Shown here: positions 8,082 to 9,945 of the stretch, in pieces
Position numbering within the stretch: position 1 is the first letter of the stretch
Layout: each line of letters opens with the position of its first letter
From: Bacillota bacterium
GTDB taxonomy: Bacteria > Bacillota > Sulfobacillia > Sulfobacillales > Sulfobacillaceae
DNA: 64,000 nucleotides
Assembly (NCBI GenBank): GCA_023511625.1
Contig: JAIMBD010000003.1
Coordinates: forward strand, 124,001-188,000
Direction: 5' to 3'
Program-made: the position numbers and the translations under genes
Notes under the pieces: model-generated
Told to the model about the DNA's origin: nothing
Database searches by the model: none
The model's input: only the letters and a program-made list of their open reading frames with translations

Positions 8082-8826
8082 ATGCACCAGGCGTTCCGGT
8101 TGGCCGTCGACTTGTTCTACCGGGGCCGGGCCCGGGTCCCTGCCGGCTCATGGCAGGGAGTGCAACCGCGCCGAGCAGACGGTGGCCCCTCGGTGGGCAG
8201 AGAACTCCCAGGAGGCCTACTTCTCGGGATGGGCGGGTCTTGCTGCCGCCCCCAAAAGCTGGTCCCTAAATCGCCAGGGCCGGCGCAAGGGGCGTCGATG
8301 GGCTTCCCGCGCGTTCGCAAGAAGGGGCGCCGGGCCGGGGGTCGGTGAGATTCCCCACGGGCGCGGTCCGGGTGGACGACCCACGTCACGTCGTCCTGCC
8401 CCGGATCGGCCGGATGCGCACGCACCGGCCGAGGACGCCGCCGCTTGCCCGAAACGAGGCAGGGATGGCCCGGACCTGCGAGCCATGGTGGCCCGCGAGG
8501 GCAGGTGGCAGTTCGTCCGCGTCACCTGCGAAGGGGAACGCGGCCCGCAACGGTTCCGGCCGAGCGCCGTGGCGGGCGTGGAGGCCGGCGTGCGGCATTG
8601 GGTGTTGCGGTCCACGGGGGGACCGGTGGCGGACCTGTAGCCGTAAAACAGGCGCTGCATAAGCGCGCCCGCCTCAACCGGGCGCTGGCCCGGCTCCATG
8701 CCCACGTGGCGCATATCCGACCGGACGCCTGGCACCAGATCACCCCGCGGCTGGCCCGCACCTCCGGGAAGGTCGTGGGGGAGCGGCCGCGCGTGGCGGG
8801 GTTGGTTGTTCGGAACGAAGTAAGGG
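8082..8826 (+). pseudogene. Decayed TnpB (IS200/IS605 OrfB-type) remnant, several frameshifts
   Basis: Fragments of a TnpB-like RNA-guided nuclease can be followed in order across three frames. They are MHQAFRLAVD at the start, WAENSQEAYFSGWAGLA, GRRKGRR and MGFPRVRKKGRRAG, then RFPTGAVRVDDPRHVVLP, VAGVEAGVRHWVLRSTGG, RARLNRALARLHAHVAHI and finally VVGERPRVAGLVVRN. In intact TnpB the RuvC-I Asp lies in a GVDLG-type motif; here it is Glu. The RuvC-II Glu is kept but the Asp after it is not. At least four frame changes and loss of the C-terminal third mean it cannot make an active protein. No TnpA partner was recognised nearby. Confidence 0.75.
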
Positions 8827-8841
8827 AAGAAGGGGGAAGGG

Positions 8842-9321
8842 ATGGAACCAGAACGGTTGCCCCCGTTTACCGCGCTGGGGGTCGGCGGGGAGCCGCTTGG
8901 CTCCGAGGTCATCGTCGCGCGCGCCCCATCTGTGCTGCTGCTCCTTCGGGGAACCCGCTGACCCTTTTGCCGGCGCCAGCTCGGGGAGCTGGGGGAACAC
9001 TGGGAAGAAGTGGCCGCATCGGGAGCTTTCGTGGTGGTGGTTGCGCCGGATTCTCCGCAACGCCTTCGCCAATGGGCGCTGCCGTGTCCGGCCATCGCGG
9101 ATCCAGAAGGGACCGTGTTGCGGGCGCTCGGTCAGGTCGTGGACTGGTGGCGGCTTGGGCGCATGCCGGGGGTCTTGGTGGTCGACCGCCAAGGGATGGT
9201 GCGCTGGCGGCATCAAGGTCGGTCCATGCGCGACGTGCCGACCGTCCAACAATGGCTTGCCGTCGTACGCCGCATCCAGGCCGGTGAGCCTAGTGCGCGC
9301 ATACCGCGGGACGACGCATGA
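8842..9321 (+). CDS. Peroxiredoxin-like thioredoxin-fold protein with in-frame TGA (candidate selenoprotein, UxxC)
   Basis: Read through one TGA at 8959-8961, this frame gives a 159-residue AhpC/TSA-type protein. It begins MEPERLPPFTALGVGG. The active-site segment is LLLLRGTR-TGA-PFCRRQLGEL, where relatives have a redox Cys (WCPFC), so the TGA falls on the first Cys of CxxC. Downstream parts are normal for the fold, such as VVVVAPDSPQRLRQWA, CPAIADPEGTVLRALGQ and PGVLVVDRQGMVRW. Codon character looks alike on both sides of the TGA. A perfect hairpin follows within 17 bases. The rival reading is an ordinary nonsense mutation beside a decayed transposase, and no Sec-insertion genes lie in this window to help decide. 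Confidence 0.6.
8976..8992 (+). promoter_or_regulatory. Candidate bacterial SECIS hairpin after the in-frame TGA
   Basis: CCAGCTC (8976-8982) and GAGCTGG (8986-8992) form a perfect seven-base stem around a GGG loop. The loop begins 22 bases after the TGA at 8959-8961. Known bacterial SECIS elements lie inside the coding region just after the UGA, with a small apical loop carrying a G in its first positions, roughly 16-37 bases from the UGA. The geometry fits. In G+C-rich DNA short perfect hairpins also arise by chance, so this supports rather than proves recoding. Confidence 0.5.
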
Positions 9322-9468: not shown

Positions 9469-9945
9469 GTGATGGCAGAAAGCTACAGCGGGGTCCCCGC
9501 AGGTGCCGGGGCACCCGTCGGGCGCGACGGGTTCGAGCATCCCATCGAAGGGCTGATGCGCACCGCCATGGAGTCGATCAAGGGCATGATCGACGTCAAC
9601 ACGGTGGTCGGACAGGCCGTGGCGACTGCCGACGGCGGCACCATCATCCCGATTTCGAAGGTTTCGTTCGGCTTTGCCGCCGGAGGCGGCGAGTATTTCA
9701 GCAAATCTGGCCACGCCGAGCCGCGTCCGTTCGGAGGCGGCAGCGGGGCCGGAGTGACGGTCCATCCGGTCGGCTTCTTGGTGGTCAAAGGCGATACCGT
9801 ACGCCTGTTGTCGGTCGACCGCGGAGACCTCGTGGAGAGTCTAATGAACACGGCCCCGCAATTACTCGACCAGTTGCAGGAGTGGCTCGGTCGAGGCCGG
9901 GCCGCCAAGAGCGCGTCTGATGAGCCCGCCCCGCCTCCGGCATAA
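9469..9945 (+). CDS. ytfJ: GerW/YtfJ family sporulation protein
   Basis: A 158-residue member of the YtfJ (GerW) family, known from Bacillus as a spore protein needed for normal germination. It shows the family core: an N-terminal helix with HPIEGLMRTAMESIKGMID, then TVVGQAVATADGGTIIPISK, the glycine-rich GFAAGGGE segment, and AGVTVHPVGFLVVKG. GTG at 9469 and ATG at 9472 are both possible starts; AAGGAGG at 9453-9459 sits better for the GTG. The C-terminal tail is variable. It stands alone, with a hairpin just downstream separating it from the DNA-repair operon. Confidence 0.92.
   Translation: MMAESYSGVPAGAGAPVGRDGFEHPIEGLMRTAMESIKGMIDVNTVVGQAVATADGGTIIPISKVSFGFAAGGGEYFSKSGHAEPRPFGGGSGAGVTVHPVGFLVVKGDTVRLLSVDRGDLVESLMNTAPQLLDQLQEWLGRGRAAKSASDEPAPPPA

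Follow-up and report, generated by a model that had tools for sequence, protein, structure and literature searches.

Does the frame at positions 8842–9321 (forward strand) of the window, the whole 64,000-nucleotide stretch of DNA analysed here, encode a selenoprotein, or does its internal TGA simply end the gene? Starting from ATG 8842 and closing at the terminal TGA 9319–9321, the frame is interrupted once only, by the TGA at 8959–8961. Read through, it gives a protein of 159 residues, MEPERLPPFTALGVGGEPLGSEVIVARAPSVLLLLRGTR-U-PFCRRQLGELGEH..., in which residue 40 would be selenocysteine (Sec, U40) and would open a UxxC motif (UPFC in the window protein, UP[YFH]C across the order). The partner cysteine, C43, is encoded at 8968–8970 on the same strand and is invariant in the alignment. 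The start codon is preceded by a purine-rich, ribosome-binding-like stretch, GAAGAAGGGGGAAGGG (8826–8841, forward strand), and most relatives carry a resembling motif at the equivalent place. The AhpC-TSA domain PF00578 spans both halves of the read-through protein (residues 6–122, 52.4 bits versus a cut-off of 26, 6.2e–14), as the claim of an earlier note on this DNA, that the frame is intact on both sides of an in-frame TGA, would have it. We suggest that the gene very probably encodes a selenoprotein with the TGA read as Sec.

Directly upstream, at 8640–8840, lies a remnant of an IS605 OrfB/TnpB transposase (PF01385, 4.6e–5, below the cut-off), and directly downstream, at 9472–9942, a gene for the sporulation protein YtfJ/GerW (PF09579, 9e–29). 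No conserved gene neighbourhood was found beyond lineage-specific neighbours, and the neighbourhood gave no clue to the substrate.

We searched 61 genomes, the window's own and its relatives, and found the gene in 21 of them (own included), with TGA at the identical codon in every one. The 20 homologues, all from the same order, share the architecture of the window protein and align with it at 36–47% identity. Invariant in the alignment are F9, L35, R36, G37 and U40 up to and at the TGA codon; P41, C43, R44, L47, P69, D70, D87 and G97 after it; and, further downstream, Q98, W102, G106, P109, G118 and D131. A profile search against 398 genomes of the same phylum added 13 genomes, of which 12 have TGA (motif RGLTUPFCRKELGEL in one, NRGFxUPFCRKHMMQLH-type in 10, and a more distant RGTWUPNC in one) and one, G199, has Cys instead (RGSWCPVC). 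Altogether, TGA occupies the equivalent codon in 33 genomes, 32 besides the window's own (33 of 33 in the close family), and no close relative has a sense codon at the Sec position. The earlier note had placed the TGA where homologues carry the first Cys of a redox motif, RG.WCPFC, and had proposed looking for Cys or TGA at position 40. The first part stands for ResA, the first Cys of whose CPHC motif aligns with U40, but the closest relatives turned out to have TGA themselves rather than the Cys form. Nucleotide differences are in excess at third codon positions both upstream of the TGA (0.40/0.26/0.63 for the three positions) and downstream of it (0.34/0.32/0.55).

A true stop in a pseudogene, or a sequencing or assembly error, would equally present as a lone stop within an otherwise intact frame, but with the identical TGA in 33 assemblies and coding constraint on both sides of it we rejected the pseudogene and consider either origin practically excluded; a misread TGC or TGG, which the earlier note had named as a way to fail, cannot be the explanation, since the same TGA recurs in 33 independent assemblies. 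One homologue, L057, has an extra in-frame TAG just past the hairpin described below (MMQLH*DQ) and is possibly a decayed copy.

The genome to which the window belongs (2.59 Mb, 97% complete) is equipped with the full bacterial Sec system, and the check for selA, selB, selC and selD returned all four: selA (566 bits), selB (342 bits, on the contig that also contains the window), tRNA-Sec (72.9 bits, anticodon TCA by ARAGORN, hence UCA) and selD (367 bits). The selD gene (G000:C9:5570-6499, L072) is itself a selenoprotein gene with one in-frame TGA, in the context ...SKSG-U-GCKLGPEDL (GUGCK). The Sec site of SelD is known as UxxK (PMC13188914, Table 1), and the SelD TGA at this site implies that the genome uses Sec elsewhere too. 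Gene and machinery also tend to occur together. Among the 61 genomes, the gene is present in 20 of 47 with selB versus 1 of 14 without (Fisher test, P-value 0.012, or 0.0015 when genomes <80% complete are left out, both values ignoring relatedness), and the sole gene-bearing genome without selB is 63% complete. In the wider search selB exceeded the cut-off in all 12 TGA genomes, and G199, the genome with Cys, gave only a weaker match below it. Under strict filters tRNA-Sec went undetected in 5 of the 21 genomes with the gene, and selA in two (G027 and G036); these are probably draft gaps. More generally, some relatives (G036, G001, G007 and others) have selB or selD without detectable tRNA-Sec or selA, which may reflect either gaps in the drafts or Sec systems in decay.

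Changes of the genetic code, too, give rise to read-through frames, and the TGA could in principle be decoded as another amino acid (e.g. Trp) or passed by programmed read-through unrelated to selenium. We consider this extremely improbable, as the codon aligns with a Cys of CxxC proteins, the genome has the complete Sec machinery with tRNA-Sec(UCA) alongside a SECIS-like hairpin, and its own SelD has TGA at a known Sec site. Recoding to Trp was rejected on the Cys-aligned codon, the Sec machinery and the SelD TGA.

The candidate signal for Sec insertion is a bSECIS-type hairpin at 8976–8992 (forward strand). It is exactly as the earlier note had described it: a 7-bp stem with a GGG loop (CCAGCTC-GGG-GAGCTGG) that starts 14 nt after the TGA and has its loop at bases 22–24. 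The published bSECIS model calls for a loop of 3–9 nt whose first or second base is G, a stem of 4–16 bp and 16–37 nt from UGA to loop (PMC13188914). The window hairpin, with a 3-nt loop, 7 bp and 21 nt, lies within this range, in line with the earlier note's view of its geometry. In isolation the hairpin folds at –10.0 kcal/mol, with a pair probability of about 0.87 in a 44-nt context. The energy of a 61-nt fold of the region is unremarkable (z = 0.37), and an Rfam scan of the hairpin gave no meaningful match. We therefore replaced the minimum-energy test with codon-shuffle and covariation tests and drew the significance of the hairpin from comparison.

In group A, to which the window belongs, the summed stem over 21 distinct sequences amounts to 124 bp versus 24.0 ± 8.5 bp in synonymous-codon shuffles (maximum 59 in 5000), a margin that is large though inflated by relatedness; for the window sequence alone the codon-shuffle P-value is 0.038. 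Across 22 group-A sequences, 94% of cells retain the seven pairs of the window hairpin, with double-sided changes at four pairs, and the covariation score is 0.310 versus 0.093 when shuffled and ≤0.096 for slid partners. L025 and L026 score 0 when the register is fixed, since a C-C apposition widens their loop to 5 nt and leaves a stem of 6 bp. In the second clade, group B, a stem of 5 bp closed by a tetraloop starts six columns further on. It is 100% paired, through the variants GATGC/GCATC, GGCGC/GCGCC and GACGC/GCGTC, and coordinated Met-to-Ala/Thr and His-to-Arg changes maintain the pairing. No single sign speaks more strongly for a functional RNA element than pairing retained through changes of the protein.

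These data bear on a further alternative, in which the conserved peptide (LGEL, MMQL) would by itself impose the hairpin, and Sec insertion would be signalled from another place. With MMQLH, the form seen most often, its codons by themselves do yield the hairpin at P of about 0.2. However, synonymous shuffles of group A never came near the observed stem, the group-B pairing survives the amino acid replacements, and the more distant homologue L058 keeps a whole stem made of different base pairs, so we regard a by-product as very unlikely. The reading of the TGA as Sec, which the earlier note had proposed, is thus borne out by the recurrence of TGA at this codon in 33 genomes, by the Sec genes and by a covarying hairpin. 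From the sequence, the conservation and the machinery we infer that Sec is very probably inserted: SelB-GTP and tRNA-Sec would decode UGA codon 40, recruited by the hairpin 14 nt downstream.

What would Sec do in this protein? The AlphaFold2 monomer is confident (mean pLDDT 92.3) and places U40 just ahead of a helix (residues 41–52). The best Foldseek neighbours are peroxiredoxins and Bcp proteins (3drn, TM 0.82), which, together with the PF00578 match, agrees with the peroxiredoxin/thioredoxin-like superfamily named in the earlier note. In profile alignments U40 corresponds to the first Cys of ResA CPHC, C43 to the peroxidatic Cys position of Bcp (2cx3), and P109 (codon 9166–9168, forward strand) to the proline of ResA PLP. 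P109 is invariant and sits at the cis-proline position of thioredoxin-like oxidoreductases, so it may well be cis here too. The peroxiredoxin motif PxxxT/SxxC is absent; its place is taken by R36-G37-x-x-U40-P-x-C43, with R36 at the Pro site and U40 at the Thr site. There is no apparent N-terminal export signal or anchor, hence the protein, of peroxiredoxin/TlpA-type fold, is presumably cytosolic.

We suggest that the enzyme would work in the cytosol and depend on Sec to reduce disulfides or peroxides. U40, at the N-terminus of the active-site helix and three residues ahead of C43, would attack a disulfide or hydroperoxide as the nucleophile; C43 would then resolve the mixed bond or selenenic acid as a U-S bond, which thioredoxin would re-reduce. 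That U40 is the first nucleophile of such a disulfide-type reaction seems to us somewhat more probable than not. The roles may also be reversed, with C43 reacting with peroxide and U40 serving as a fast intramolecular resolving residue, a less likely option: C43 matches 2cx3 at its peroxidatic Cys and the closest structural neighbours are peroxiredoxins and Bcp proteins, but PxxxT/SxxC is missing, R36 and U40 stand in the Pro and Thr places, and the conserved proline has its counterpart in ResA, not in Prx. Because the UPxC and proline signature is present and PxxxT/SxxC is not, we favour a thiol:disulfide oxidoreductase, or an atypical Trx-dependent peroxidase, over a classical peroxiredoxin, with U40 as the likelier attacking residue.

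Selenoproteins of this general kind are known. Prx-like thiol:disulfide oxidoreductases with PF00578 and UxxC/UxxU motifs are listed in Table 1 of PMC13188914; the same kind has been known since 2005, as 'Prx-like protein' in PMC1088965, and appears as 'Prx-like 1' in PMC2398784, an ocean survey that counted 2,740 Cys homologues versus 225 with Sec. The window clade shares with them PF00578, UxxC at the thioredoxin-like position and a bSECIS-type hairpin, but differs in its signatures, RG..UP[YFH]CR..L and GQ..W..G[RL].P, and in being almost wholly Sec. Its closest relatives have TGA and not the Cys form RG.WCPFC. Judged by domain and motif, we take it to be a new clade, dominated by Sec, within the known 'Prx-like thiol:disulfide oxidoreductase, UxxC' selenoproteins. 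ResA/TlpA thiol-disulfide oxidoreductases (3c71, 4nmu) share the CPxC-type motif and the aligned proline; unlike them, the window protein has no apparent export signal or anchor and Sec replaces the first Cys. PrxQ/Bcp peroxiredoxins (2cx3, 3drn) and TxxU peroxiredoxin selenoproteins share the fold, whereas the window protein lacks PxxxT/SxxC and has its Sec three residues before the peroxidatic position. The nearest curated NCBIfam model, the SelL-related redox protein NF040769, is matched by all 21 aligned members, but the window protein scores 58.6 bits, well below the cut-off of 120, and thus falls outside that family. SelL proper has UxxU.

In the open-access literature we found no paper describing a Sulfobacillus selenoprotein. 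No NCBIfam model exceeds its cut-off for the clade, so automatic annotation probably misses it. The clade counts 33 TGA members. No close Cys member was found in the genomes searched, Cys occurring only in remote relatives: a single-sequence scan of genome contigs gave as its sole match a remote TlpA-like Cys protein in a Lysobacterales MAG, and in the tree two Cys proteins sit only on long branches, a placement compatible with either Sec or Cys as the ancestral state. Most selenoproteins have abundant Cys counterparts; as none were found here, the clade is useful for asking what Sec does beyond Cys. Tentatively, and with somewhat more doubt than confidence, it might be an obligately selenium-dependent subfamily, without Cys orthologues, patchy over the phylum, of a chemistry in which Cys cannot replace Sec, and missed by annotation for want of a curated model. 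The locus thus offers a well-supported selenoprotein, its SECIS element backed by comparison, in genomes whose standard gene models would break up or omit the gene, and a curated model made from the alignment would mend the annotation in at least the clade's genomes.

A related arrangement occurs among more distant relatives. L058 (637–1968, reverse strand) encodes a Prx-like domain with the motif UPNC, with TGA and with a perfect SECIS-like hairpin of 7 bp, joined to the signalling domain of methyl-accepting chemotaxis proteins (PF00015, 1.3e–25). The passages of PMC2398784 on selenoprotein fusions make no mention of such an arrangement. Among the loci of this kind (L058 and L060–L069), the TGA and the frame of 399–400 aa beyond it persist in 10 genomes, that of L058 among them, at 65–92% identity, and the fusion is a possible candidate for a selenium-based redox chemoreceptor.
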